A stretch of 64,000 nt of DNA from Ectocarpus siliculosus (Eukaryota; Sar; Phaeophyceae; Ectocarpales; Ectocarpaceae). Position numbers and translations under genes: made by a program. This document shows positions 3,685 through 50,300 of this stretch, piece by piece (position 1 is the stretch's first letter; each line of letters begins with the position of its first letter). The stretch covers positions 2,144,396 through 2,208,395 of the forward strand of contig FN649752.1 in assembly GCA_000310025.1 (NCBI GenBank). Direction: 5' to 3'. The notes beneath the pieces were generated by a model. That model saw only the letters and a list, made by a program, of their open reading frames with translations. It made no database searches and was not told the DNA's origin.

Positions 3685-6600
3685 GCCTCAGCAGAAGCGG
3701 TGGCTGTTTCGTCAAGCCCCACGCCTTCGCCCGCTGCCGCTCCCTGGCGCCCGCCGAAAGTCGACGGTTGTGACAGGGCACTGGCGTCTCCGGCCCAAAG
3801 ACTTCGCCGGTCTGCTGCCTAGAAGGCAATAGAATAGGGTTTGGGGGGGGCTTTGTAGCGTGGGTGCGGCCTAGGGTCAGCGAAGGTCGGCAGAAGTAGC
3901 TAGGTTATGGCCCTCACCGCGTCGTCGTGTGCTGTACAGAACTATTTCCGGCTTCGTGCCAAGCAATCCTCTTGTAGCATCACAACGAAAAAGACACAGC
4001 AGGATAAAGCATGCATACATGGGTTGGAGTCGATCGCTCGATGTCTGCTCCTAAGCCTTCGCTCCCCACCTTGTCGACCTCGAGCATCAGGATTTCGCGC
4101 CCGGTAGAGGACTCCCGGAAGTGCTTAGTCACGACGAGCCCCGTCGGGTAAACCTCCTCCGTGACGTTCCCGGCGGTCGCCGGCTCTTCCTGTCGGTCGG
4201 CAGGTCCTGCTCCGGCCCCCGTCTGCGCTGCGGCATCTGCCGGGGTGGCTTTTTGTTCGTTCAAAGTCCCGCCCCGTGGGATGAATCGACGCTTAGCTAT
4301 CTTTGTCAGCGATGTGCTCGGCGTAAAGCTCCGTTTGGCCGCCCGGAGTCTTTTTACAACAGGAGCAAAAGGAAAGCAGAAGTACCGACCCGACAAAGTT
4401 GGCTCTCACCGACGACACGTGCAAGCTGCGTAGGGCGGGGGACGACCTCCCTTCTTACCAGTGTTGTGCAGGGGAGTCGCGAGGTTCTACTGCATGTTAT
4501 TGGTCGGCATTTCGGCAGAGCGATGTGTCCCAGTGATTGACTCGCACGCACAAACACACCACCAAGACGTGTACAACATGTTCGCCTCTGTCCTGCCATT
4601 CATGCGCTCACGATAGCGAAATGGACGAAGGCGAGTCTCCGCTCAGCCCCCCCCCCCCATCCCTGCTCCCAAGGTCGGTACCGGGTGATCTTCCCCAACA
4701 TTGTGTGATCACCTTGCGTCCGCGTATCCCTTAGGTACCGCGACTCCCACGCCCGACATCCCCGAAGACGGTGCTTGAGCGGAGTCGAAGTTGAACTGGA
4801 GCCTGGACTCGTGCACGTATGACGGCTGCCGTCGACCGACAACCACCGGCGTCTCTGTCCGTCCCCGGGCGTCCCACGAATCCCTGGCGCGGCGGGCGGC
4901 CACGGATGCGGCAACGACGGCGTTCATCGGCCCCGCCAGTTTGCCTCCGTCCTTGTTGTTGTTGTCTTGGTCGCCATCTTCCGCTGAGCGACCGGTGCCC
5001 TGCTGCTGTGCCTGCTCTTCTCGTTCTTCTTCTTCGTTCGTTGCGTGCTCGGCCTGTTCACGCCGCTGCACTCTGCTATGAATTATCTCCCCGGCGGGAC
5101 TGCTGCTACGTTCGCCCCCACCGCCACTTGGATACCTCCCTCCCGTCACCACCGGTTCCCCTGAAAAACAACCATCCATCGGGGGCACTACCTTAGACGA
5201 ATAATCAAACATCGCGCCCGACTCTACCGCCCCCGATCGTACCTCGCGCAGCTCAGACCCAGAAGCCTCCAACGCGAGCGTGGCGCTGTCTTCGTTGGTA
5301 TTGGAGAGCGTCGAACCGGGTGGATATCTAAACCCCGAGGACATGGAGCCACCGCCGCCGCCGTTCGGAGACCCCGAGGTGGTACCCCCCCGGAAAGATC
5401 CCGCAACGGCGGAGAAATGTTCGTCCCTGTCCCTGGGACGGGCGCCGCTCGGCCTGCGGGAGAGGCTCGGCACGGCCAGCTCCAGGGAGTACATGCCCGC
5501 GATGTGCTGCCCCCCAGGCTCTACCTCACCGCTCCCTACTACCGATTGGGGGAGCACGGCACCGTCCCCGGTGCTCGGTTGCTGGAGAAACAGGTGGTCC
5601 CACGCGGCGGCGGCGGCGGCAGCGGCGGCGAATTCGGGGTCGATCTTTACCGTTTTCCCACCACTTACTTGCCGATATGCGTGTTGCGGCGGGGGCTTGT
5701 CGCTGATATCGTGAGTGTGGTCGGCGCGGTCGCTGTTGATGCTTGTTTCTTGGGGATCCGGCGGGGGGAAAACCGTGAGATTATTGACGCTGGGCCTAAC
5801 GGGTGTCGGTCCCCGTCGCATGGGAATTCGTTGTCCGACGCCCCCCCTCCTCGAAATCTTCTTGCGCTCGCGCTTCGATGATTCTGGCCGCAGGTCACTC
5901 GTTGGGGAGGAGGCCCGGTGTGTGCCGTCGTCGTGCGTGTCACCACCGCCATCCGCTCTGGGCAACGCCAGCCAAGCATCTCGAGAGGCAGCGGTCAGCA
6001 CCATTCTTCTCTTGCCGGAAGCCTCCCATCCCAACAGAGGCCCCTGTATTCCGCCGAAGACGTGGTACCGTCCGGCCTCGCGACCCCTTGGGCCGCCCAC
6101 CTTCCAACGGTAAGCCCCATCTCCTCGTATTGCAGTGGTCTCCGATGACGACGATCCGCCGTACGCGACGGAGCGAGACGGGAGCCGTGGTATCAAAGGT
6201 TTCCCCGGAAACGCGTTGGCCACCGCGGGACACAGGTGTCGGGATTGTCTGCCGCCGCCACCGCCGCTGCCGCTCTCCCCCATCAAAGCTTCGACCGTGG
6301 CGGACTCGAGCACGGCGACAACGCCGTCTAGCGCGGCCACGACCCGGAATGTGTTTGGCTTCCTCGTCGACGACACCCTCGCCGTCGACCCCGCTACCGC
6401 CGAGCCGGCCACCATGATGTCGACCTTTGCGAACTTTCTGGGCGGGGAAGGGCCGCCGGCGTGTCGGCCAGCAGTCCCGGGAGCGGGCTCGATATCGACA
6501 GGAGGAGGGAGGAGAACGGCGGCGGCTGGCTCCACGGAGAGGCAGTACCGACGGAGCGGCCTTATGTTGTCGCCGGGGGCCATGGACACCCAGCGCACCA

Positions 6601-9600
6601 CGGTGCGGTCGGCCGAGGTGGTCAGGATCACCCGCCCAGCCTTAACCCCGCCGCCGCCGCCGCCGCTGTGCGAACGGAAGCCCATCCCGAGCGCTACGAC
6701 GATCGACGTTACCCTCGCCTCGTGAGCAAGCGGGAACGCCTGCAGGGCCTCTCGCGTCGATGCGAGGACCCCGCTGCGGCTGGCGAACGGGATCGTCCAG
6801 ACTTCCACGGCGCCCGACTCGAACCCGCACGCCATGTGCCCCTCGGACAGGAGCTCGAGAGCCGTAAGGCGCCCGACGTCCCCACCACCACTACCGCCTC
6901 CGCCACTGCCGACAACGGTGTACCCCGCGAGGGTGAGAGGAGACATATCTTGCCTTTGTGAGGTGTCGATGCCCCAAACTTTCACCTCCCGGTTGGCGCC
7001 CGCGGTCACGACAAAGAAGGTAGATTCCCCGACAGCGTTTCCGGGGCCGCTACCGTGGCCATCGGCGGCAGCAGCCTCCTTCACCCCGCCGAGCCGCTCG
7101 AGCGGGTCCTGGGGGGCGTCCATGGCCGTCCGAATGGAAACGACCACATCGGTGTGTGCGAGAATGACGTGCCACGGTCGGCGCGACGCGCGACCCGCCG
7201 ACCACAAGGCGACGGTACCGTCGGCGCTGCCAACGAGCGCGACAACCCCGCCGCCGCCGCGGCCTGCATCGTCGTGCGGTAAGGAGCCGCCAGATAACTC
7301 AGCCTCCGAAATGAATTGGTTGCCGGCGTACCGGAGGAGCAGAGACAGGGGGATGAGCCCCACGGCCGTCGTCGAGACGCACGCGCCCCTCGCCGGCAAG
7401 AGCTGCTGCTGCGACCGCCGGAGTCGGAACGACACGGACGCCGTGCGTGGGTTCATGACGTCCACCGTACCATCGTTCCACCCGCAGAGGAGGACCCCCA
7501 GGGTGGTGCTGTGACACCACGACGTGATGAAGCAAGGGCGGTCCACTCGCGGAGCCGACTCTACTTGATCTTCCCTGAAGCCAACACGCGGGAGGAGCAA
7601 GGTTCATAGCATAGATGTTTGGGGTAGGAGAGAGCGACACAAGACTTGAACAGGTGGAACGTCTAGGTCACTAATATCGGAAACTCTGACAATAGTAGAA
7701 GCGGCTATGGCGCCCTGCGCAAGACATCACCGACGCCGAGCATTGGCGCAGAGGGAGAAAAATGGATTAGATAGTATTTTAGCGGATCTACAACGTCATT
7801 TAGGGGATCTGCAATGCAACCACAAGCACCATTCGTGCTAGCCAGTTCGCTAGGGCCCCTTTTTGTATGTTTTTGTCTTCACTTCAAATCAGCGCTCACA
7901 GTATAGGATATTGACCGGGTGGTAGCGCCCACTACATCACCAGATTATCGTCGGTGGTGCAATTTGACGCCTTTACCAGAACTTCTCCTTCGGCGCCGCA
8001 CAGAAACATACGGGTAGAAGACAGACTCCAACAGACGCGATATTGGTGAATTGCTCGCGTAGTCTACCCGTGTTCAGGCGTCTTATTTGCAATCGGAATC
8101 GGTTGCTTCACGATTCGACGTGCGAATGCGTCTTTGTTATTTTTGATTTAAGGCACACGTAGGGTGAAACTCATCACACAATAACACAGACGGGGAAAAG
8201 AAAAAGAGTCGTTCCAGAATGACGGGGTATACATCGATGTTCAGCCAATAAATATGACAAGAGTCTGGCCCGCAGAAGCTTTAATATAGCCCAGCCTAAA
8301 TACTCAAACATATCCACGGAGTTACTTTTCCGACGAAAGGTCGTAAAATCGATGTAGGTCCTAGGAACATCACTTTCAGAATGAAAACGGGTCTTTCGTG
8401 GAATAGGCGATATGTGAGGAACAAAACAAATGTGTGAGCCATAATGTCAACTGGGCCTGAAACCCCACTTAAGACCACGCCTTCATTCGTACGACCCTCG
8501 CGACGGTCATTAGCCCGAGGCCATCTACAATAAAAAAGAGCGTGATATCTTATTGGTATTTGTATGCTGATCAAAGGGCTCCCTGCAACAGCCCCGTCAA
8601 GTCTTCTACACTGCAAGCAGTCAAGTCGTCGCGTTCTTGGTCGTCATGGTGGCGCAAAATCTAAAACCCCAGACAATTAGAGGAGATATTCCACAAGTTG
8701 GTTGCCAATATACAAGGCCGTGAAGACTCCGTGTCCCCGAAATCCACATAAAAGTCCCCATCTTGGCAACGAAGAAGCCCTCTCTCCACCAAAAACATAC
8801 ACCCGTACCTATGTCTCCGTGCGAGCGAGACCTCCTCAACGACTCCAGCCCGCCCGCCACCGCTCACGTCCAGCACCTGAAACGACGGCCTCTCGGCCCA
8901 CACCAAAGCCAGCGCCTGCAGAGCTCCATGTCGAGGCACAAGGCTTCGCATTCCCAGCACTCGCGGTGGTGCCCCCGCGTTCCCCCCACCCTCTTGAATG
9001 CTGCCATCGCGTACCCCCGCCTCTTCTTCGCCAGACTCCCAGAGGATAGGGCTCTGGTCCTGCCTACCCTCTCGATCCTCAGGTAGGAAACTGACCCCCG
9101 ACAGCGCAACCCCGGCCGCCACTAGCAGTCCGGGACCAACGGCGACGTCTGGGCATCGCGAGCGACTAGGGATGACTGCTGCGATCAGAGCCCCTGACGG
9201 CAACTTTCGCGGGTCTACGGCCTCCTCCTGCTCGACCTCCTCCTCCTCAACCTCCTCCCCGAAAATATCGCCACCGTTGACAGCTTGAGTTTCAGCCGGC
9301 CTTCCCTTGTGCCTCAGTTCCGGGTGAGTTGTGTTTCTCTGTTGTCCAGTATCGTAGGGGGCACCGTCGCCTCCACCGCCGCTGCCATGAGGGGGTGACA
9401 ACGACGACCCTTTGGTGTCGGAAAAGGACGACTCGGGCCCAACCGTGGGGCCCGGCGGCGACGCAGAATCCGTCTCGCCTTCACCGGTGCGAAGTTGTCG
9501 TCGCTGTGCGGTACGCTCAGCTTCAGGCGGAAGAGTGGGTTCCTTTGGGACGCGTGGCGCCGCGGCGGGGAGCGTGTACGCCGCCACAGCGGTGGACCCG

Positions 9601-26914: not shown

Positions 26915-29900
26915 CTATTGCCTGATGGCAGCAGCAGGAGCCGCCGCCGAAGCGGTGCCTCGGCGCTCCAACACACCACCGCGTTCCTCCTCCAGCCGGC
27001 GAAGCGCCAACCCCCCTTCCGACTCCAAGCCGGCGGCGATCCCCCCCTCGCCACCGGCGACGACGCCGACGGCGGCGGCCGCGGCAGCGGACCAGCCGCA
27101 CATGACCCCGGACCCGACGCACTCGCCGCCTAGGTAGAAGGCCGCGAACTGCCCGGGCGCCAGGGCGGAATCCTTGCTGTCGAGGTTCACGTATCCCCTC
27201 GTCGGCGAGCCAACGCGGTCTTCCACCGTCGCTTCCGCGCCGCCGGCTCTGCCGCCGCTGTCGCCGGGGGCAACCTCCGGCACAAGGCGCAGCAAGCAGT
27301 CTCTCATCTGCGGGCCGTGACGAGTCTTCACCCGCAAGCGCATGGACCTGTCCCGCGCGAGCTCGGCGGGGGGTCTCCCGGAGATCCACTGAAGTGCCTC
27401 CACCTGCGGCAAACAAACGGTCACGAGACACCCGTTCCATGTCACCATCGAGACGGCCCACACGGACTTTGCCTTTCGAACAACGGTATGCCGCGTGTAT
27501 GTGGAGAACTACGTAGGACGACTTGCATTGCAACCCCATGGCAGTGTGAGCATGCACCTGTCACGAGGCATCCCCGCAAAAAGCTTAAATCCGCGCGATA
27601 TCCGCAACAAACTCTCAGGCACACGACAACCGCTGTTCGCAACACGCAAGACCGCGGTGGTGCAACGGCACGGCAGTGTGAAAAGAGGGAATCGTCCTCG
27701 ACAGAAGTTCGGGAGATTTTACCCTTGCGAAGGACATCTCGACATTTCTCCCCCCCCCTTGGTAGGCAAGGAGGGTTCTAGGGGTAACGGGAACCCGACT
27801 TGAAGCCAATGAGAAAAGAGGGTATCGTCCTCGATAGACGTTGGGGAGTTTCTACCCTACATGCGTTGGGGAGATTGTATAACCCTTTATGAAGGGGATC
27901 TCAAAAAAAAAAAAAAAACACACACACACACAGAAATTACGCACCCTGAAGACCTCCCTCGGGCTCGCGATAGCCTCGCGGTCGTTCGTCACCACGAGCA
28001 CGTTGCGCTCCATGTCCTTGTCGGCGACGTACCACGGGCCGAGGTTCACCACGCCGGGCACGAGGCCCGGGCCGACGCCCTTGCGCTGGCCGATGGTGTG
28101 GAACCAGAGCCCCTTGTGCTCGCCGATGTGCCGCCCGGTCTGGTCGACGATCGCGCCGGGAGAGGTGCCCAGGTAGTGCTGCAGGAACTCGTCGAACTTG
28201 AGCTTGCCGAGGAAGCAAATGCCCTGAGATTTACGTCGCGTCGACAAGCGATCGGTTGGTGGAGGCAAGACGCCCCCCGCCACAGGACAAAAGCACAAAA
28301 AAGAGAAATCGTGACGTGACAGAGGGTGTCAAAAACAAATAAGTCAATAGGCAAAAGACGAACAAGAAGACAAGACTAGGTGAACATGTGACGGGACGTT
28401 TGATGGTTTAGTTGGGAGAAGGGAGACGGGTGGGGAGTCTGTCGTTGCCAGCCGCCGCCGGTGGGATGGTTGTGGCTTCCTGCCTGCTCCCGCAGAGAGC
28501 GTGGGTGACAAGATATCAGTGCCTATCAACCCGACTCGCGTGGTGCGAACAAGGCGCTGAGGGACTCACTGCATCGGTTTGAGTCAGGCTCTCTGTACCG
28601 TCAAACCGTTTGGTACACGGAAAAACATAGCGACAAACTAATCGCTTCACGTATCTACGAGGCAAAGACACGAAGAACATCAGCATGAAAGGGATGAAAC
28701 GGAAAAAAAAAGAGGTAGTTTCAATTACGGCAATATCGCCAACAGCGGCAATATCGACAATAGCGTACAAGCGTGGGTGGCGACGCAAGAGGGAGTGGGA
28801 AGGGTGCTCTACGCTCAACGTTCCTAAAGAGCAAAGAACTATATAAAAGGAGGAACTCCCTCGCCCCCGCCTCGCCCCCGTGCCTCACCAAGCCATTCTT
28901 ATTGTTGTTTTGACATTAAAACCAGTTCCGGTCCCTGCTCAATCCCTTCTACTACCCGTGCCGGACCACTATGCAGACGCCTTCCGTGGCCATGAAAAAT
29001 AAGCCGCACACAGCTACGCAAAAATTACCCTCCTCCGCAAGTTTAGCATTGTACCTGCGAGTCTTTCCGGTGCTTGGTGGGAAGGTCGTAGCTCTCGGCC
29101 AGCTCCCGGATCTGGTCCTTGGTGTACACCCCGAGCGGGAACAGCGCCTTCCGCAGCTGGTCCTGGGTCAGCGCGCACAGGAAGTACGTCTGGTCCTTGA
29201 CGGCGTCGGGGCTTAGGAGCAGTCGGACCCGCCCCCGGTCACTGCCGGCGGCTACCCTTACCGGAGGCTCTTCCGTTCCCGCTGCAGCTGCAGCTGCCGC
29301 TGCACTGCGATCGCTAGGGGTAGCATTGGCGTCGTCGCTGCCGCCCGAGTGCTCGAGCCTGGCGTAGTGCCCGGTGGCGACGTGCCGGAAGTGTTTCCCG
29401 ACGTGGTCGTAGAACATGCCGAACTTGATCCTGCTGTTGCACATGACGTCCGGGTTGGGCGTGCGCCCCTCGCGGGCCTCCCTCACCGTGTACGACACTA
29501 CCTGGTCCCAGTACTCCCTCTGCAGCGGGACGACTTCCAGGGGGACGCCCGCCTGCTCGCACACCGCCGTGGCGTAAGCCAGGTCTTCCTCCTGCTCGTG
29601 GCAGATAGATAGTGGTAAAGGAAGCCCGGGGAGGTGCTGCTGTAGCTTGCGTTGTACGTTGTCGTTCAAAAATTAAGGGTGTCTCGGAGACGATTCAAGA
29701 GCAAGAGAGCAAGTCTGGGTGCTTTGCGGCAGTCGGGGGAAAACCAATCGACCAATCGACCAGAATCAGCTACCGCTGCAGGCACGGAGTTACTACCTCA
29801 GGGCTACCCCCCCCCCCCCCCCCGCTTGGGCCTGTAGGCTAATGGATAAGCCGCCACGCTTCTAACGTGGATATTGCGAGTTCGAGTCTCGCCAGGGCTG

Positions 29901-32089
29901 CTTATCCTGCTCCGGAATTTTTTAATAACATCCCCCCCGGTGTTTGTCATCCGGGGTAGGGTTTTCGTCGCTTGGCAAACGACGTTGTAAAAAAAGCCGC
30001 CCCCTCGGTGTTTGCCATCGGGATTGGGATCTCGTCGCTTGGCCACGACGTTGTAAAAAAAGCCAATTCACTTCGTGAACTCGGCAACCAGGTCACCGTT
30101 TTTTTTTTTACTTCTGTTTTTTTTTTTTTGGCGGTAACCATAATGGTGGTCGAGTAGATCATGTTGTGCGGGGTCGAAGAACCCTCACTCCGCGCAACGG
30201 GGGATGATCGCACCACGTTGTGTTAAAATGGTCAAGCTCCCTCGAGGCAGTTACACAGTGCTTACAACCGTCTCTGGAAGTGAAAGCACCAGAAAATAAA
30301 TTAAGTCATACGTAGCTGTCATCCGTACGCAAGGAAGTAAGCACAAGATGCCGAACACCCTTAGCAGGATGCAGCTCACCCTTCATGCGACTCGCCAAAT
30401 ACCTCACGGCGCTTCGCGCTTGGTGATGTGAGAGCCTGGTCCGGTGAGAACCCGGCGTGCTCCGTCCCGGCTTTGTAGGGATGCGAGGTCAATGGTCTAA
30501 TGACTACGGCATGCACGACTATGAGTACACCCCCCCCCACCCCGCTCTTTCTACGTGCTCCCGCGCGACGGAGGGACACCATGCTTGGGGCTTGGAAACA
30601 ACCCGATCACTGACACTCACGGGAGCCAGGGCAGAGGCAGACACACGAAATTCGAAACAACAAGTTGAGAGTGTCACTCGCCAAGAGACCCGAGGCACCA
30701 CAGAGAGCCAGCGGGCACGCAAACGAAAGCAAAGAGCAAAACAGTTCAACTCACCCACGGGCACTCATTGAGGTGAGCAAGCTCGTCCTCCAGCCAGATC
30801 TTGAGGTAAAACGCCCGGATCTTGTACCCTTGGTCTAGGAGAAGCCTCATCGCCACCGACGAGTCCACGCCCCCCGAAAGCAGCATCGCCACTTCGTTCT
30901 CCGCGCCCGGCAGGGGGTACCAGCCGCTCGCGTCGTCCCCCCAGCTACGGCTGGGGTCCAAACCAGCGGTGGTTGTGGTGGTTGTGGTGTCGGCAGTAGT
31001 GCCGCTGCTCGACAGACCTGCTGCAGACGCTGTTGCTGCTACCACTGGTGCTGCCCCCCTTGTCGCGGCTGCTGCTGCTTCTCCCCTCACTCGCGGCGGT
31101 GATGTCGACAAGGCTGCTGCTGCTGCTCCGCCTGCCGGAGGCACCGCCAGCTCTCTTGGCGCCGGCGCCGCCGCTGCTGCTGCTGCCGCTTCAAACCTCC
31201 CTGCGTTGGTGGCCGCTAGTGGGGTAGCTCCCTGCACGGCCGTCAGGTCTACCAGGGTCGGGCGCAGGGTGTCCGCCGCCCCGGCGGCGGCAGAAGCGGC
31301 GGCAGCGGCGCCGCGGAAGTACCCCCGGACTTGGTCCTGGATCACCCCCAAGACGTTCCCCAGCCCGTTGATCCGGCTGGAAGTGAGCCCGGCCCTCATC
31401 CCCACCGCGGCCGCGAGGTCCTTACCCCGCAGGCTCAGGACCGTGCGGGCGCTCTGTCCCTGAAGGCCGAGGGCCAGCAGGGCCAGCAGGCCGCGGCTGA
31501 GCCTGGCGTCGGCGGTGCCTCGAATGGAGACGACCCCTCCGCCGCCGCCCGCTCCGAGAGAATCGTCCGCCCCCGCCGTCGCCGCTCCTCCCGGCGGGGA
31601 CGGCGGCGGCGGGCTCTCCTCCACGCAGACGGCCACGTACACCTCTGAGACGCAGCCGGGCACCTTTTGCGCGTGCCAGCCGTCCGCCGAGGCTTCGTTC
31701 ACCGTCGTGCTGTCGCCGGGCACCACGACGGGCAGCACCGCGGCGTCGGTGTTCGCGAAGGCATCTCCGAGTTCTACGAGAAGCTTGCTCTTCGTCTTGA
31801 GGTCGGTGTCTTGCCCGAGCATGTCCACGGCTGCTTGGAGTCGCGGCGGGAGGCCCGGCGGAGGAGGGGGAGGAACGAGGCGTCCCTCGGTAGCACTAGC
31901 GGCAGAGACTGCGCCGTCGCTGTCCATCCGGGTTGTTCGCGGGCGCTTGCGGCTGCGTGTTGGTGGCAACGCTGCCCTTGTTGCAGCATGATTTTGAAAA
32001 CGCTTTGGCAGAGGAGACGGGTGCGGTGCGAAGCATTCAGCTGTGCCTGCAAGCAATGCTGCGGAAACTAGCAGGGCGTCGATCTTCAT
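26915..32089 (-). CDS. mnmA: Plastid SufE-MnmA fusion, tRNA-specific 2-thiouridylase
   Basis: Four phase-0 exons: 32089-30755, 29591-29055, 28223-27945, 27403-26915; 879 residues. Residues 1-25 form a plastid leader (MKIDALLVSAALLAGTAEC then FAP). Residues about 82-260 are a SufE domain: persulfide Cys146 in VPGCVSEVYV, then GTADARLSRGLLALL and LTSSRINGL. A Ser/Ala/Thr-rich linker leads to the MnmA/TrmU part: PP-loop LSGGVDSSVA (405-), nucleophile Cys496 in NPDVMCNSRIKF, TGHYARL, KDQTYFL, second catalytic Cys627 in KDSQ-GICFLG, then GQRKG and C-terminal APGQFAAFYLG. Known chemistry: MnmA adenylates U34 of tRNA for Lys, Glu and Gln and replaces O2 with sulfur from a persulfide chain; SufE accepts sulfur from the desulfurase SufS. 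The fusion should pass sulfur from SufS to MnmA in one polypeptide (inference). Introns hold a tRNA, a SINE and local duplications. ATG 32089 is chosen over in-frame non-ATG codons upstream because the leader begins there. Confidence 0.93.
27679..27858. repeat. Two diverged direct repeats of about 48 bp in MnmA intron 3
   Basis: The segments 27679-27726 and 27810-27858 share AAAAGAGGG, ATCGTCCTCGA and GGGAG followed by a T-rich TACCC. They lie in intron 3 of the SufE-MnmA gene. The second copy is about 90 bp from the intron's 5' end, after a poly-A and (CA)n tract at 27903-27932. Confidence 0.65.
29828..29900 (+). tRNA. tRNA-Arg (anticodon TCT)
   Basis: 73-nt cloverleaf: acceptor GGGCCTG/CAGGGCT with one mismatch (G3-G70) and one G-T pair, D stem GGCT/AGCC with loop AATGGATA, anticodon stem CCACG/CGTGG with loop CTTCTAA (TCT), T stem GCGAG/CTCGC with loop TTCGAGT, discriminator G. 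A and B boxes are intact. It lies in intron 1 of the SufE-MnmA gene, antisense to it, after a C run. Flaws in the acceptor stem leave open a tRNA-derived repeat, especially as the sequence just downstream is duplicated. Confidence 0.8.
29939..30064 (+). repeat. Two tandem copies of a roughly 60-bp unit after the tRNA
   Basis: Copies 29939-29999 and 30007-30064 share GGTGTTTG-CATC, TCGTCGCTTGGC, and ACGACGTTGTAAAAAAAGCC. They start 38 bp past the tRNA-Arg and are followed by T runs at 30099 and 30117. The arrangement could be the body of a tRNA-headed SINE. Confidence 0.75.
30332..30545 (+). mobile_element. C-tailed SINE, near full length
   Basis: About 210 bp, starting AAGGAAGTAAGCACAAGATG and running through ACGGCGCTTCGCGCTTGGTG and GGTGAGAACCCGGCGTGCTC to the tail GGTCAATGGTCTAATGACTA, GCATGC, GAGTACA and a C run. 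It is over 90% identical by eye to the copy at 44882 and shares its tail with the LINE at 50.5-51.5 kb. It sits in intron 1 of the SufE-MnmA gene, antisense to it, with its C tail about 210 bp from that intron's donor. No clear pol III B box was seen. Confidence 0.85.
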
Positions 32090-33137: not shown

Positions 33138-35744
33138 GGTTCAGCAGGTGGAAACAACAGCAGTGTTGCCTGAGGATTTGGCAGCAGTCCTACAGCTGCA
33201 GACACCCATTGGCCAATGGAAGCTTTGCAAACGTCTTTACCGTGCTCTCGGACACACGCCCGCTAGCATACCGTCTCCTCCCGAAGGGGTCAAGGACGGG
33301 CGCTGGGCGACAGCGTTGGCAGTGACCTTCTTGCGGCGCCGGCCAGACTTGATCGACCTCACGTATGAGGCTTATAGGTGAGCAAAAAAATGGTAGTGTA
33401 GTTCTTCCATCAAACCGGGCTTACAGGTGTGCGAACGGCGCTGAACCGTCAACAGTAGTAAAGAAACAATCGTACACCTCTGCAGTAGGTGGTGGGATCC
33501 TGATGTATGTTACCCGCAATGCACGGGTCCTCAGCCAAACCTTTGCACGTCTTTCCTTACTGCGACGCACGAATTGTAACGTTGGTCTCGCCGTCCCACC
33601 TCTCAGACTATTCCCCGCCCAACTCTTGTCCGCTCGACCAACGTAACAGCCGAGCGATCGCTTGGGTCGACGAGCCGCTCCTCGCGCAGGCACACAGCCG
33701 TCTGCCGCCAGCCGACCTGTACTACCCCGTGGACGAAGAGGCGTCACGGCAAGGCCGATGGCAGCAGCAGGCCGAGGAGGCTCTAGAGGAGTGCGGATAC
33801 GCCTATTTCTTGCCTTCGCCCTCTACTGCTGCTGCAGACCACGGCTGCGGCGGCGGCGAAGAAGGCGATGATGGTGCTGCTGCACCCCGCCGCCACGTCC
33901 CGACGACCTCGAACTTGTCACCGGCGCGTGCGATATCCGATAGCAGCTGCAGCAGCAGCAGCAGCCGCGTCCCCGGAGAGATGGAACGCAAGGGGATGAA
34001 GGTGTACCCCTCTGCTGCCGCTACCGCTCCCTGTGTAAGGAGACGAGGTCGACGGCGGGGGGTGTCGGCGACGTTACGCCTCAAGGCCATGGCGGCCGCC
34101 AGGCATCAAGAAACGCTTGAGCAGCAGTCGCGAGGCCTACACCTAGAGATGAAGCGCGCCATGAAGGTGGCCACCACTACCTTCAGAGAAGGCGACAGGG
34201 TGGAGAGCCGCTGGCGCCGTCCCACCCGGCTCGACAAAGCGAAGATCGATCCAGGCGCCTGGCACCCCGGCCGTGTGGTCCAGAGCCACAAGGACGGCGG
34301 CAGGGTAGACGTGGTGTTCGAGGACGGAGACGGCGAGCGCCTGAGCGGTATATCCACCAAGCATGTCCGACTAGCTCCGCCCCCTTCTTCCTCAGAACAG
34401 CATCCTCTCGTGAGCTCAGGTAGGGACGACGATGACGTCATGGCTGCCGGGGTATCGGGAAGAAGAAATAGCTGCGACCGACGGCCGTCGTGCGTCCCGA
34501 CGTCCGCGCCGACCGACGAGCTGGTGTGCTCGGCGAGCCGTGGCGAGCTCGCGCACATCGCGTGTGCGACCAAGTTCTTGCGTTGCACCTGGGAAGACCC
34601 AGTGCCTATCAGCCAGGAGATGGCGAGGCTCAGGATGCTGGAGGAGCGCAAGATGCGCGGTCGGCCGGAATGGCGCGGATCGTTTCCCCTGGTCGACTTC
34701 AGCGCGACGAAAAGGCTGCCATTCGGGGCCGGCGGGATGGCCAGGACGGGCGGGCGGAGAGCAAGAAATGCCGCCGCATCGGCGGCGACGGCGGCGGTAG
34801 CGACTCGGGATCGTCAGCTCCAGGCGCAGGGTACCGTTCACGACGATAGCAGGACGAGGTTGCGAACGGTACAGTGGTCACCCTCGTCCTCACTCAAGAT
34901 GCCGACGACGGTCCCACAAGTACATCGAGAGGAGAACATCGACCGTGACCAGGGGCAAGGAGACAGGTGCACTTCCACTGACGACAACACGGTCAAGGAG
35001 ACCAACGCGAGGAGCGCCGGCAAGAGGCGTTCTTCATCGTCCTCGCCATCTCCCGCGGCGGCGGCGGCGGGGGCGGAGGCGGCAGGAGCGACGGCTCTCT
35101 TAGAGGCACAGGCGAAGCTCGTCTCCGCCGCCTTGGCGTACGACAGGTACGTGGCCGGCGCCCGCGACTGCCTCGACAGGGGCTGCGCCGCGTTCCGCCT
35201 GGCCCGCACGTACTCCGAGCAGCAGAAAGCTTTCGAGGAGTCGACGGCTATACTAGGCCCCGCACAGCCCGCGCGAGCCGGCTACACGGACTGGCGAGGC
35301 AGTCCCGTGGTGGGGCTGCAGAGCGCCACGCTCGATGTCGTGGAGGCCATGGACGCTTGGGCGGCGGAGTGGGCGGCGGACAAGGGTGGCAAGCCGGATA
35401 CCGGGGGGGGAGGTAACGCGTTTGCGGAGGAAGGAGTCGTACTAAAAGACGGCGCTGTGGCAGAAGTCGCTGTCGCAGCGCCGCCGTTCCTGTGGGAAGG
35501 ATCGCCGCTGGTGTCAACGATCATCGGCCAAAGCGCCAAGCTTGTTGCCGGCGCGCCGGAGCTCAAGGGGTGGTACGGTCCCGGGTTCCCGATCGAGAGG
35601 AACCCTTTCTTTCTCGCTTATCCGGTGGACGATCGACCCGTTACCCCGCGCAGCGCTCTCGTCCGGGCTTGGGTGAACGGGGAGGTAAACGTTCGGATGG
35701 TGGTGGATACGAGCGTGTGCAACAAGGAATTCGTCGCTGAGTAG
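33138..35744 (+). CDS. VWA5-type C-terminal region fused to a Tudor-like domain
   Basis: Two exons seen: about 33138 (or 33148)-33377 and 33650-35744, joined in phase 2 across GTGAGC...AACAG. The 5' end is not resolved: the first exon has no convincing in-frame ATG, so an upstream exon is likely missing. Exon 1 reads like the helical tail of VWA5A-type proteins (LQTPIGQWKLC, then GRWATALAVTFL, continued by AIAWVDEPLL). Exon 2 adds a Tudor/Agenet-like domain at about 34180-34375: FREGDRVESRWR, WHPGRVVQSHKDGGRVDVVF, EDGDGERL. Long charged low-complexity stretches follow, then a conserved-looking C-terminus (GWYGPGFPIERNPFFLAYP). Tudor-like domains usually bind methylated Lys/Arg; the combined function is unknown. 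The gene is divergent from MnmA. Confidence 0.6.
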
Positions 35745-44300: not shown

Positions 44301-47300
44301 TTGTTTTCGTGCCTCTATTTGCCGCTTTTAGTGCAGCTTGCCCGAATACGGCTTGATGTGCTGCGAAAAAATGCCCCCTCAGCCGAAAAGGGCAATATTT
44401 CGTCACCTCTACCGACTGTTACCACCCCTGCGCCCCAGTCCACCCAAATCAACGAAAACCGTCGAGATGCTACGCACAACGTACTGGAAAGGGGCCCGGT
44501 GCCTGTGAAGGCCTGTACTTTTCGGATAACGGGGTTTAGTAAGGATAAAGGGGTCGTCCTCAGCGACATTGTCTGTGTGGTCATTTTTGTGGAGAGGGAG
44601 AGGGGTCTGGTTTGACTTTCAGCAGCAAGCAACTACATGTGGAGTATGGCGGCCTACGATTCCCACCGCTTGTTGAAGCGGTGCCAAAACTCGTGCTTTC
44701 CCGCTGGCGTCTTGTTCTTTCTCCAAGCACCCTCTGCCCCCTCCTCCTCGTCGACCTCCTCCTCCCCCAGGCGGCGCGCCCTTACGACCTGATCGGCAAC
44801 ACCCTCAAACACTTGATTCCCGGTCTGAACTGTACAATTGTCACACGGCCGCGGGCATGCACGATACCCTCCCCCCCTCCCCGGAAGTAAGCATCAAGAT
44901 GCCGAACACCCTTGGCAGGATGCAGCGCACCCTTCATGCGACTCGCCGAATACCTCACGGCGCTTCGCGCTTGGTGATGTGAGAGTCTGGTCCGGTGAGA
45001 ACCCGGCGTGCTCCGTCCCGGATTTGTAGGGATACGAGGTCAATGGTCTAACGACTATTATACGGCATGCACGGTACCCCACCCCCCACCCCCTGCACGT
45101 CCCGCTCTGGTCCCTGGGTACAATGCACGACGAAGGAGTTGGCGAGGAACCCGGCTGCCTTCCGCGCCAAGGAGAGACGGCTGGTGGGGGTGCTGAAAGA
45201 CCTGGACGTAAAGCTGGAGCGCCTCAAGAAGGACCGGGACTCCGCTCTCAGGAAGTAAGTTTCCTAGAGAGTTTTGCTGTGAATAATAGAACGCGGATAA
45301 AAGGAATGATGTTGACGCCCAACACCAACAACAAGTGCTACTATTACTGTACGATACGGTGGCGCGCTTCCTTCCGCCTTGCTGCGATTGCACAAGGGAC
45401 AGGTGTCACCCGCGTACGTAGTAGGCACCGACGCGACGGCCTCCTTAGTCCCGTGCTCTTGTATTTTAATCCGTACCACCCAGGCTTGCGGCCCACCGCA
45501 CTCTCGGTGCGCGTTTGTCCGCCGGGGCAGGCGGGGTACCCAGCGAGAGCGGCGGCGGCGACGGCGGCGGGCCCCCCAAGACCGCGGAGGAGGTGAGGCA
45601 TCACTGGTTCGGCGGCGGTTCAGATCACAGAACAAGGCCCAATTGTGCGTCTTCTCGTTGTTGTACATATGACCCCAGGTGGGGCCAGCCCGCGTTGTTC
45701 CTTTTGCTGGAGAAGAAGGCGTGCGGTTCAGGTGGGGGGGGGGGGGGGGGGGGCACTGAAGTTTATGGTTTCAGTTGGAGACGGAAGCACAAGTTTTCAT
45801 GGTGTTTCTCTGCAAAGGTTCTGATTGTCTGCCCCGCCGTCTTTAACTCCTTTCCGGTGGCGTCACGTTTTCTCTCGTCGCTTGGGCGTTGAAAAAATCG
45901 CCCGAAAAAGGTTGTGGATATCATTTTCGCCGATGAGCACGGAGCCACCGCCGCCGGCGGTATCGGCGGCGGCGGCGCGAGAACGCCGTTACCTGTGTCG
46001 ACGAGCGGCCTGTCCGAGGGGGGGCGTGCGCAACAACGGGGAGCGGGGTTGCTGCCGCCGTTGTCGTCGTCGTCGTCGTCGTCGTCATCTCTGGTGTCTT
46101 TGTTGTCGAAAGGGACGGCAGTCGCTACTGCTGCTGCTGCTGGTGGCTCTGATGCTGGGTCGGGCGAACGACCGACAACGGCACCACGACGCAGCCGACG
46201 AGAACGGGCTGAGGGAACTCCCGCGCCCCTCCTCGCGGCAGAGGAGGACGGTGCGTCGGACGGAGCGGCCGAAAAAGGAGGAGGAGGAGGAGGGTTTGTT
46301 GCTGGTGCTCGCGGTACACCCCCCTCCGGCGATAAGCGTCGGTGCGACGACGACACGGGTTGTTGCGGCGATGATGACGACGATGATGAAGACGACGACA
46401 CAGGAGTGGGGAGGTTGATTCGTCGTCGGAGTAGTGGGGGCGCTAACGACAACGGGCAGCGGTCGACGCCGGGCGGAGACGGGAGTAGGGTTAGGCGTGG
46501 GAGGACGCTGTGGGCCATCGCTCAGGGGGCGGACGAGCTGAGTCAGTCCAATTTCGTTACGGGAGTGTTCGCAGACATCAAGGCCAACTCCATCGGTAGC
46601 GTGGGAGGAGGGGCGGGTGGGAAGCCGCAAGCCGCCAAGCCGGGACGTCGGGCGGCAGTGACGGCTGCGGCGTACGGCGACGCGAGGTTGTACAACCGCC
46701 GCGTTGGGTCTTCCGCCGCTGCTTCTGCTTCGGCGTTGTCTTCAACCTTGTGCTCCAACCGAGGAGGCATCGACGCTGCCACTCGCTCTGCCGACGCTGC
46801 TGACACCGACAAAGGAATGGGCGGGGGTCGACCAGGGAAAAGCGAAAGGGAACAGAGCGTGAGCCAGCTTAACCCTTCAGATGAGAACGGTGGTGGTGGT
46901 GGTGATGGTAACGACGCCGTTGATGACGCCATTCAGCTGCTGTCGCAAACGCTGTCGCAAGCTTCGGTGTCGGGTCGCGGCGGGACGGCCTCCGCGCAGG
47001 ACGGAGGACAGGAGAACAGTGGCAAGAAGCAAGAGGAGGAGGCGGAGAGGTCCGCCGCTAGGCACATCGCGCGGGCGCCGGTGTCGGCTCTCTCCGGGCT
47101 CTTCCCCAACTGGAAAGAGAACGTCATTTTCGTGTTCCGGCAGGGAGCGGCGGAGCTCCGCCTAGCGCTGCAGGGCATCGTAGCCGCGTTGTCCGAGGAG
47201 GAGGAGGAGAAAGCGGCGACGGCCGCAGGCGGGGGAGGAGGAGGGGGGGGGGGGGGGGCGGGTCCGGAGGGGCGCCCTAGTGGTGTTCGTAGGAGAAGCA

Positions 47301-50300
47301 GAAAGGCGGAGGCGTTGGTGTTCTTCGAAGGCGTTGTTCTCGAGGCGTTGGAATTGAGGGGCCCTGCTTGTAGTAGACGGTCGGCTTCTTTGGGGGAGGA
47401 ATCAGGCCGTGAGGATGGCAGCCGCAGCCCGGGGTTCGAAGCAGGGTCCCGGCAGACACTGCACCGTGGGAGTGAGGGTGTCGGTGATGGTATAACTAGC
47501 GGTGACGCCGCAACACCTGGAAGCGATAGCCCCCCCCGCGGTGGCGCGAGTAGCGTTCAAGATAACGTTTTCGCGTTAGAAGAGCAGGAGGAAAGCGCGA
47601 GAAAGAGAGACGACGGCGCCGGCGCCAGCGAAGGCGGTGTAGGTCAGGCCGGAGGCGACGGCGAGGATGGAGATCACCTTTCGGTTGCCGATGAGGCGAT
47701 GGGGTTCGAAGAGACGCACGCCGCCACCGCTGAGAATGATGGCCATGACGCCGAGCCTGCTGCTGTTGGAGCAGACGACGGCGACGCAGGCATGCGGAGC
47801 GTTGGGCACCCCCATCACGGAGACAGCAGCGTGGAGGCCATCGTGCTCAGCGGCGACTCCACCGCGTCAGCGGTGGTCACCTTCGACCTCACGAGCTCGG
47901 AGGCCAGCAAGCGTTGTTCTTCCGCCGGTGACACCGCCGCCACCGCTGCCGCCGGTGGCGTTGCCGCGGCAGGGATAGCAGAGTACCCGGTCGGTGCTGA
48001 CGGTAGCGGTCGGAACTCCGGCCGAGGCGTCACGGCAAGGATAAAGAACGGTCAAGAGGAGGAGGAGGAGGAGGAGGAGGAGGAGGAGGAGGAGGAGGAG
48101 GAGGAGGAAGATTACACGTTTGTGATCGTGGGCAGGGGCGGCGGCGGCGGCGGCGGAGGTGGAGCCAATGATGCTGACAGTAGTAGTCGGAAGTCCCACC
48201 GAGGCGTCACCACAAGCGGAAGGAATTGCCAAAGGAAGGAGGAGGAGGAAGAAGATGACGAGTTTGCGATGACGGACAACGGTGGCGGAGATGGCGCCAA
48301 TGGCCCGGGCTCAACCGACGAGAGAGGCGAAGCTAGCGGTGACGGTAGCGACATCATCGACCAGTACGCCCTGGAGGACGAATACGGCTTCGACGACCAC
48401 AACTATTGCGCCTGGGGTGACGAAAACGACTTGTCGTTTGTTCCCTCTCCCGACAGCGACGGTGTCGCCGACGAGCGGCAGCCGCCGCCGCCGCCGCCGC
48501 CACCGTCACCGCCGCTTTCGCCGACACAACGGCCCCCCGATATCGATCCCCCCGCTGCTGCTGCCGCTGACAAAGCCTCCCACGATTCAACGTCCGCGGT
48601 GGGGGACGAGCTGCTGGATCTCACTCAGGTAGCGCCGCTGCCGTCCCCGTCGCCGAGACGCTGCCGTGAGCCTCTAGACGCGGCAGCGGCGACATCGCCT
48701 ATTGGTCGGGGTCGGTCGCAACATCGCGGACTTGAAAGTCCGGCGGCGGCGGCGGCGCGCAGGCATCACCGCACACCGCCATCTTCTCCGGTAGAGGAAG
48801 AGGAGGGGGCTCCGTCTTCGAGTGCCGGAGGGGGGAACGGGGACGATGCCGAGCTGCGGGAGGTGATGCCTTCGTTCGGGCAGATGACGCTCCAGGAGCT
48901 GGCCGGGATGATGGCGGTGTACGGGCTGAAGAAGAAGTCTAAGAGGTTGGTGTGCCTCTTGTTCGCGCATCCTCGTCGTGAGGTTTATCGTCGGTACAAT
49001 GTATGAATTCGCAGGAATTTTTGCATTGAGCAGATTCCGCAGCATGTTGGGAGGGGTGTCCAACAGGGGTACTAGCAGTGCTCCGTCTTGAATAGATGTC
49101 TACGAAATACTTCGGCTCTCTTGCTTTCGCTCTCTTCATCTGTATTTTTCCCCAAGGTTGTGTATTTGCAACAGCAAGGCATAGCGCGTATCCTCATGTT
49201 GCTTGCCAAACAGAAACTGTTGGTGCATTGTACCAGCTCCGTTTCGAGGCACCTCCCTCACATACCCTTCTTGTCCTCCAAACGCCCCCTCCGAATGCCC
49301 AACCCCCTGCGATCCCTAGGGAGATGACGGAACGCCTGGAACACATCTGGAAGACCCTGCACCCCGCTGCCGTCGAAGGAGGCGTGTCTGCGGCGGGGGA
49401 CGGAACCGCGACTTCTTCTTCTTCGTCGTCGTTGTCCAGCAGAAGCAGAAAGCGAGACGCGCCGTCTCGGGATAGCGGTGGCGGTCCCTCTTCTTGTCTG
49501 TCGGCGTCTTCCCAAGGTCGTCGGCGCGGCAGGGCGGCGGCAGAGGCGAGGCCCACCTCTTCACCAGCGGCGGCGGCGGGGGCGGCGGTGACGTTATCGA
49601 CAAGCATTCCACGGCGCCCTCCGGTAAGCCAGCCGCTTGCTGCGAAAGAGAAAAACACGTTTGTTGCGAATATTTACTCTGTTTGAAGACGATAAGGACT
49701 ATTCGAGTACAAATGTGAATGTCGCAATGGCCCCGACGATGTTGCGACACCTTACTTTGTCGATGATGCTGCGGTGTTACTTTTTTTTTTATGGTGCTGC
49801 GGTGCCTTATTGTGTCGATGATGCTTCGGCATGTTATTTTGTCGATTGATGCTGCGGTGCCTTGTTTCGTCTGTTTTTGTTTTGCGCCTCCTTCGGACTG
49901 GTCCGCCGCCACTTCGAAACAGCTTCCGAGGGCACCCCGAGGTGCTGGTGTCCCGGGTGCTGGTGGTAGTTGGGGGGGTAGGTTTTCGCAGGAAGAAGAG
50001 GCGGTGCCCCCGCTGCCATCGACGTGCAGGTCTCAGCAGCAGCAGCAGCAGAGGCAGCAGCAGCAGCAAGGGTTTATTGCCGAGAACGGCAGCGGGAGGA
50101 ACGGGGGCGACGCGGACCTCGGGGAGAGTATACGCAGCGTGATCATGTAAGAGTTTTGTCACTCGCGCGGTGGGAGGGAGGAAGGCGTGAGGGTGTACTA
50201 ATGTAGTGCGTGCCTTCGTTAATAGGCCATCGGCATGCGGGGGGCATAGAACTACGAGGAAACGTAAACAAGTGTAGTTGGAAGGAGAGCGATTGTTCCA

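Follow-up and report, generated by a model that had tools for sequence, protein, structure and literature searches.

In apicomplexan parasites, the plastid enzyme MnmA (tRNA 2-thiouridine(34) synthase) is known to carry, ahead of its catalytic part, sequence that resembles the sulfur acceptor SufE. The Toxoplasma gondii protein TGGT1_309110 is described as having one SufE domain (residues 519-589) together with three tRNA_Me_trans stretches, and loss of this protein harms the plastid (PMC9420914). In Plasmodium, the N-terminal extension of MnmA has a SufE-like structural domain that could accept SufS sulfur and hand it on to MnmA, and the methods of that study also compare the N-terminal regions of MnmA from Babesia, Theileria, Toxoplasma and Eimeria (PMC10219651). 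The apicoplast survives deletion of the stand-alone SufE, but not loss of SufS or MnmA, and the same authors did not find Tus proteins in Plasmodium falciparum (PMC10219651). For algae, a survey of 25 microalgal species gives two forms of SufE, SUFE1 (BolA present or absent) and SUFE3 (joined to NadA); the word "tRNA" is absent from its main text (PMC8003979). The gene described here joins SufE to MnmA in the brown alga Ectocarpus siliculosus (GenBank assembly GCA_000310025.1). It lies in a window of 64,000 nucleotides, the whole stretch of DNA that was analysed (contig FN649752.1, positions 2,144,396 to 2,208,395 of the forward strand), and all positions below are those of the window.

The fusion matches the apicomplexan architecture: SufE is N-terminal, MnmA is C-terminal, and one reading frame holds both. 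An earlier reading of this DNA from its letters alone (the sequence-only reading) did not know of a described SufE-MnmA fusion, and the supposition that there is none is wrong. Neither the architecture nor the idea of a sulfur relay within it is new: the pairing is known in kind from apicomplexan plastids, in Toxoplasma (PMC9420914) and Plasmodium (PMC10219651), and the relay has been raised for Plasmodium (PMC10219651). Among the matches listed, the literature search (subscription papers and supplements lay outside it) brought up no account of a photosynthetic organism with SufE-MnmA, and within the literature searched the fusion is apparently unreported for algae. The fusion is real and its chemistry ordinary; its value lies in evolutionary inference and in its use as a test protein for sulfur delivery.

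Gene structure and domains

The gene is on the minus strand, with its start ATG at 32089 and its stop codon ending at 26915 (Table 1). The three introns, of 1160, 831 and 541 bases, have GT...AG ends, and all junctions are in phase 0. Between Met231, which is inside SufE, and the PP-loop the sole ATG codon is that of Met402, three residues before SGGVDSS, so that a separate MnmA begun at an ATG would be missing some of the first strand. The reading of the locus as two separate genes, or as a join produced by exon chaining, is rejected, because both domain joins lie in the 1335-base exon 1 in one frame and Met402, the one intervening ATG, falls inside the start of MnmA. The stop-free run of 534 codons in the fusion frame has a chance of about 4e-6 (a rough estimate from base composition alone); judged on the sequence, the domain matches speak much more strongly against chance than does the length of this run.

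One splice site allows two choices. The acceptor of intron 1 reads CACGAG/CAG/GAG, where the slashes mark two possible acceptors 3 bases apart (29594 or 29591). Gln446, the residue at issue, faces a gap in all nine bacterial relatives of a MAFFT alignment (A1; 9 of 80 loci). Because the aligned bacterial MnmA sequences have no residue matching Gln446, the true acceptor may be the one 3 bases further on; the exon would then run from 29591, the protein would have 879 residues, and later residue numbers would fall by one. A tRNA-Arg(TCT) gene lies within intron 1 on the opposite strand, at 29828-29901 (+).

The MnmA half is matched by all three of its Pfam families, tRNA_Me_trans at 220.2 bits (cut-off 20.6), tRNA_Me_trans_M at 68.4 (27) and tRNA_Me_trans_C at 44.2 (20.6). 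Among NCBIfam models, the fusion scores 326.8 bits with the equivalog trmU (cut-off 236.95) and 319.5 with NF001138 (cut-off 284). The PP-loop and both cysteines align with those of Escherichia coli MnmA (2der). By its equivalog score, its PP-loop and its two cysteines, the fusion is predicted to be an MnmA, that is, a tRNA 2-thiouridine(34) synthase. We take the roles of Cys497 and Cys628, and the order in which they act, to be those of the E. coli enzyme.

Pfam detects SufE (PF02657) in the fusion at 48.3 bits against a cut-off of 27, over model positions 56-120 of 121, which is the C-terminal half only. The cysteine-bearing half, outside this match, is supported by the alignment and by a structure model; the model of the domain has the SufE fold, with a fold match. 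The glycine, cysteine and serine of the GCxS loop are invariant in all 32 aligned SufE rows (31 from viral contigs plus the fusion), and in the fusion about 27 additional residues form a loop that follows the cysteine-bearing strand. SufE relatives are present on 65 viral contigs (L105-L169), with the loop GC[MIV]Sx[IV]W kept in all 31 that were aligned.

Ahead of SufE is a leader whose sequence TAEC-F-APHP agrees with the rule of a Phe after the signal-peptide cleavage site in heterokonts. Comparable leaders are seen in this genome on the SufE-BolA protein (GEA-F-VTPN) and in the frame upstream of the SufS exons (VDA-F-MMPP). From its leader, the fusion protein is predicted to be located in the plastid. 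Third-position G+C content is 0.63 in the linker and 0.52 in the leader; it is 0.82-0.97 in the SufE and MnmA stretches.

Most of what the sequence-only reading had said of the protein has held. Its single gene with clean splice phases is borne out by exact coordinates, GT-AG introns and uniform phase 0, and its SufE and complete MnmA in one protein by profile scores over the Pfam and NCBIfam cut-offs, the PP-loop, Cys497 and Cys628. Its persulfide cysteine, Cys146 in VPGCVSEV, agrees with the presence of the motif and its alignment with the conserved GC of SufE, and its plastid leader with the hydrophobic start and the Phe.

Table 1. Positions of the fusion gene and its parts within the window
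Feature	Position	Strand	Description and basis
SufE-MnmA fusion gene, whole	26915..32089	minus	4 coding exons, 880 residues (or 879); GT-AG introns, domain matches
Exon 1	32089-30755	minus	Leader, SufE, linker and first ~50 MnmA residues including PP-loop; single open frame
Exon 2	29594-29055	minus	MnmA HUP domain, holds Cys497; acceptor could be 3 bases downstream
Exon 3	28223-27945	minus	MnmA, holds Cys628
Exon 4	27403-26915	minus	MnmA C-terminal barrel, Ala/Gly-rich tail, stop codon
Bipartite plastid-type leader, residues 1-75	31865..32089	minus	Hydrophobic start, then Phe in TAEC-F-APHP; sequence and hydropathy
SufE domain, residues 76-256	31322..31864	minus	Pfam SufE match, conserved residues, structure model and fold match
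Cys146, predicted persulfide carrier, in VPGCVSEV	31652..31654	minus	Aligns with conserved GC of paralogous SufE and of 31 viral-contig SufE
Linker, residues 257-395 (~139)	30905..31321	minus	46 Ala (one third), no in-frame stop
MnmA start, PP-loop SGGVDSS and KIWLEDELA..CPW motif	30755..30904	minus	Sequence, alignments
Cys497, in NPDVMCN	29439-29441	minus	Counterpart of E. coli MnmA NPDILCN cysteine
Cys628, in GICFLG	28215-28217	minus	Counterpart of E. coli MnmA GICFIG cysteine

Sulfur-transfer genes elsewhere in the genome

The genome searched comprises 189 Mb in 492 contigs; because the searches were made exon by exon, reading single exons, a highly fragmented gene may have escaped them. 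SufE is matched at two loci, the fusion gene and a SufE-BolA gene (contig C16), whose exons splice into a 317-residue protein with its own plastid-type leader. MnmA is also matched at two loci, the fusion gene and a multi-exon gene on contig C7, at which there is no SufE match; the C7 protein is presumably the mitochondrial enzyme. Exons of SufS type are found on contig C21, below the whole-protein family cut-off, as expected for single exons. There is no match in the genome to TusA (matched in 11 of 14 control genomes), to DsrC/TusE (1 of 14) or to NadA (12 of 14). Within the 880-residue fusion protein neither BolA nor NadA is matched, so the protein has the partner domain of neither SUFE1 (SufE-BolA) nor SUFE3 (SufE-NadA). 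Ectocarpus is credited with both SUFE1 and SUFE3 in the microalgal survey (PMC8003979). The SufE-NadA credited there stands against the missing NadA match here, and the difference could mean that the species is not the same, that a gene escaped the search or that nicotinamide adenine dinucleotide (NAD) is made by another route.

The genome is, by its sequence, that of a fucoxanthin-type alga. It has 87 light-harvesting matches. One of these aligns along all 181 residues with FCP17 (9ygv; 380.7 bits), and its next-ranked hits are fucoxanthin-chlorophyll proteins. Twenty of the light-harvesting matches have an equal score of 127.6 bits on contigs C92, C232, C488, C11 and C18, 18 of them on the first three; they represent either a recent expansion or repeated assembly. 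Within the window, nine long open frames (of 35 listed) have no Pfam match, among them those at 33507-35744 (+; 745 residues), 45914-49006 (+; 1030 residues) and 4709-7600 (-; 963 residues).

Proposed sulfur delivery to the MnmA domain

We consider it likely that the fusion is encoded in the nucleus, imported into the plastid and works there as a tRNA 2-thiouridylase with a built-in sulfur acceptor, with Cys146 taking persulfide from plastid SufS. Plastid SufS would load a persulfide onto Cys146; the tethered SufE domain would swing over on the linker and deliver sulfur to MnmA at the cysteine of GICFLG; and adenylated U34 would then be thiolated by MnmA. The fused SufE would in this way replace the Tus relay of E. 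coli, and iron-sulfur (Fe-S) assembly would be served separately, by the SufE-BolA protein. Since the genome has a separate SufE-BolA gene, such a division of labour, with one SufE for Fe-S clusters and another for tRNA, is plausible. For the steps beyond the architecture, including the presumed flow of sulfur and tRNA targets, we draw on the chemistry described for SufE and MnmA (PMC10219651); the parts predicted for the two MnmA cysteines follow the E. coli enzyme. The sequence-only reading had likewise proposed a route for sulfur from SufS to tRNA, and the residues and genes found would be consistent with it.

Several points weigh against a relay through Cys146. The SufE domain of the fusion is divergent, as judged by alignment: it keeps 10 of the 17 positions that are invariant in the 31 viral SufE sequences and departs at the other 7, and it keeps 4 of 18 further positions conserved in at least 90% of them. 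In blastp against the SufE paralogue of its own genome it gives an E value of 0.10, and a single-sequence fold prediction is poor (predicted local distance difference test, pLDDT, 39.7). SufE was not detected in 24 of the 25 genomes that hold the nearest bacterial relatives of the MnmA half (completeness not given); the remaining genome has it, in a frame of 154 residues. The Plasmodium authors themselves favour direct transfer from SufS to MnmA, like that from YrvO in Bacillus subtilis, and report that, in one of four attempts, the B. subtilis enzyme could stand in for Plasmodium MnmA when YrvO was not supplied with it (PMC10219651). Not every MnmA therefore depends on having a SufE attached.

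The main rival is docking without relay, in which the SufE part binds and stimulates SufS, and SufS gives its sulfur directly to the MnmA cysteine. SufE is known to stimulate SufS, and the view preferred for Plasmodium has its precedent in B. subtilis, where YrvO gives sulfur directly to MnmA (PMC10219651); the 7 invariant positions lost from the fusion SufE would also fit. The cysteine and the GCxS loop, however, are among the 10 positions kept, and docking alone would not require them; we regard this explanation as unlikely. A shared carrier that also supplies SufBCD for Fe-S assembly, and so couples both pathways, would draw on the finding that elsewhere SufE gives sulfur to SufB (PMC8003979), but it is quite improbable given that SufE-BolA is encoded in this genome by another gene, which has a plastid-type leader too, and that the SUFE1 prototype is present in all microalgae analysed in that survey. 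Least probable, and by our estimate very much so, is an artefact of gene model or assembly, or the production of two proteins from one locus by an alternative promoter, splicing or cleavage of the linker. The linker is of low complexity and GC-rich, and an MnmA only slightly truncated could in principle begin at the ATG of Met402 or at one of the several CTG, GTG and TTG codons that the linker contains. Against this stand the single frame of exon 1 across both joins, the cut that a Met402 start would make in the first MnmA strand with no other ATG available between the domains, and the identical domain order reported in apicomplexans (PMC9420914 and PMC10219651).

The proposed relay through Cys146 bears on how MnmA obtains sulfur in plastids that have no Tus proteins, for which the Plasmodium study left a choice between direct transfer and the SufE-like domain (PMC10219651). 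The algal SufE part, recognisable by a curated model and with its cysteine in place, favours a built-in relay, and the fusion offers a protein from a non-pathogen with which to decide how plastid MnmA gets its sulfur.

Origin of the fusion and comparison with known systems

The bacterial MnmA sample consists of the best 80 of 571 relatives (at least 591 stretches), taken from a scan by six short peptide patterns, and includes no cyanobacterium. The 25 best loci of these 80 (L016-L040) belong to Peregrinibacteria, Babeliales/Dependentiae, Verrucomicrobia, Lentisphaeria, Planctomycetes, Calditrichota and Acidobacteriota. Identity to the fusion MnmA is 49-55% for the 9 loci of alignment A1 and 41-49% for the 25 loci in blastp, and the KIWLED motif, present in 24 of the 25, is absent from all the remaining 55. 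Quick trees, the only kind made, and built from taxa that include no cyanobacterial or plant MnmA, place the fusion on a long branch with these 25 loci (Shimodaira-Hasegawa-like approximate likelihood ratio test, SH-aLRT, 99 and 100); its position relative to them is weakly supported (63, quick tree). One tree omitted the C7 MnmA, L078 and L083, and the other omitted the fusion and L078. The C7 MnmA, entered as a string of exon pieces whose splice sites were not exactly placed, also has a long branch, and its place shifted between quick trees.

Because 24 of the 25 genomes show no SufE, this MnmA subgroup probably works without SufE in bacteria, and the fusion more likely arose in the eukaryotic line. 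A ready-made bacterial fusion is unsupported in what was sampled (MnmA loci, their flanks and the relatives' genomes; bacteria at large were not scanned). In the flanks of the 80 bacterial MnmA loci blastp found no SufE-like open frame, which is a weak test, and the long upstream frames at five of these loci (L034, L049, L056, L068 and L074) showed no SufE-like sequence on visual inspection only, without Pfam. In 40 genomes of the phylum of genome G008, SufE gave 14 matches in 13 genomes, in frames of 140-178 residues that are too short to include MnmA. A scan of viral contigs with the MnmA part of the fusion gave no match; a second one, based on alignment A1, turned up two MnmA loci, both distant (30% identity). 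Plasmid records searched with MnmA by tblastn gave 76 records, all below 60% identity and bacterial among the 40 matches listed.

Finding the fusion in a photosynthetic alga suggests that the architecture may be older than the malaria-type parasites, and that an essential feature of the apicoplast may predate parasitism. On a broader proposal, to which we give an even chance of being right, SufE-MnmA would be an ancestral device of red-alga-derived complex plastids: a single fusion, before the split of photosynthetic stramenopiles from apicomplexans, of a plastid SufE with an MnmA of non-classical bacterial type would have wired SufS permanently to plastid tRNA thiolation, and the parasites would have inherited it.

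Compared with known systems, the algal protein is closest to T. gondii MnmA, in which SufE also precedes the tRNA_Me_trans domains in one nucleus-encoded protein, a plastid location being predicted for the algal one; the Toxoplasma protein, which is in the plastid, is longer (residues are cited up to 1598) and its host is a non-photosynthetic parasite (PMC9420914). P. falciparum MnmA (PF3D7_1019800) shares the N-terminal SufE-like domain and the C-terminal MnmA, and its location in a plastid, the apicoplast, and its sulfur from SufS are paralleled by what is predicted for the algal protein, but there the SufE part is a structural likeness that emerged from detailed analysis (PMC10219651), whereas the algal SufE is detected by Pfam above its cut-off. 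SUFE1 (SufE-BolA) and SUFE3 (SufE-NadA) of plants and algae are plastid proteins in which SufE is likewise joined to a partner; the partner is BolA or NadA in these (PMC8003979) and MnmA in the fusion, which adds a third SufE architecture beside those that the survey names for algae. The MnmA subgroup with the KIWLED...CPW motif, from Peregrinibacteria, Babeliales, Planctomycetes-Verrucomicrobia-Chlamydiae (PVC) type and other phyla, differs from the fusion in that no SufE is recognised in its MnmA open frames. E. coli MnmA is the same catalytic enzyme, with the PP-loop and two cysteines in common; for its sulfur it uses TusA-E, and B. subtilis MnmA uses the dedicated desulfurase YrvO (PMC10219651), whereas the algal enzyme has a fused SufE.
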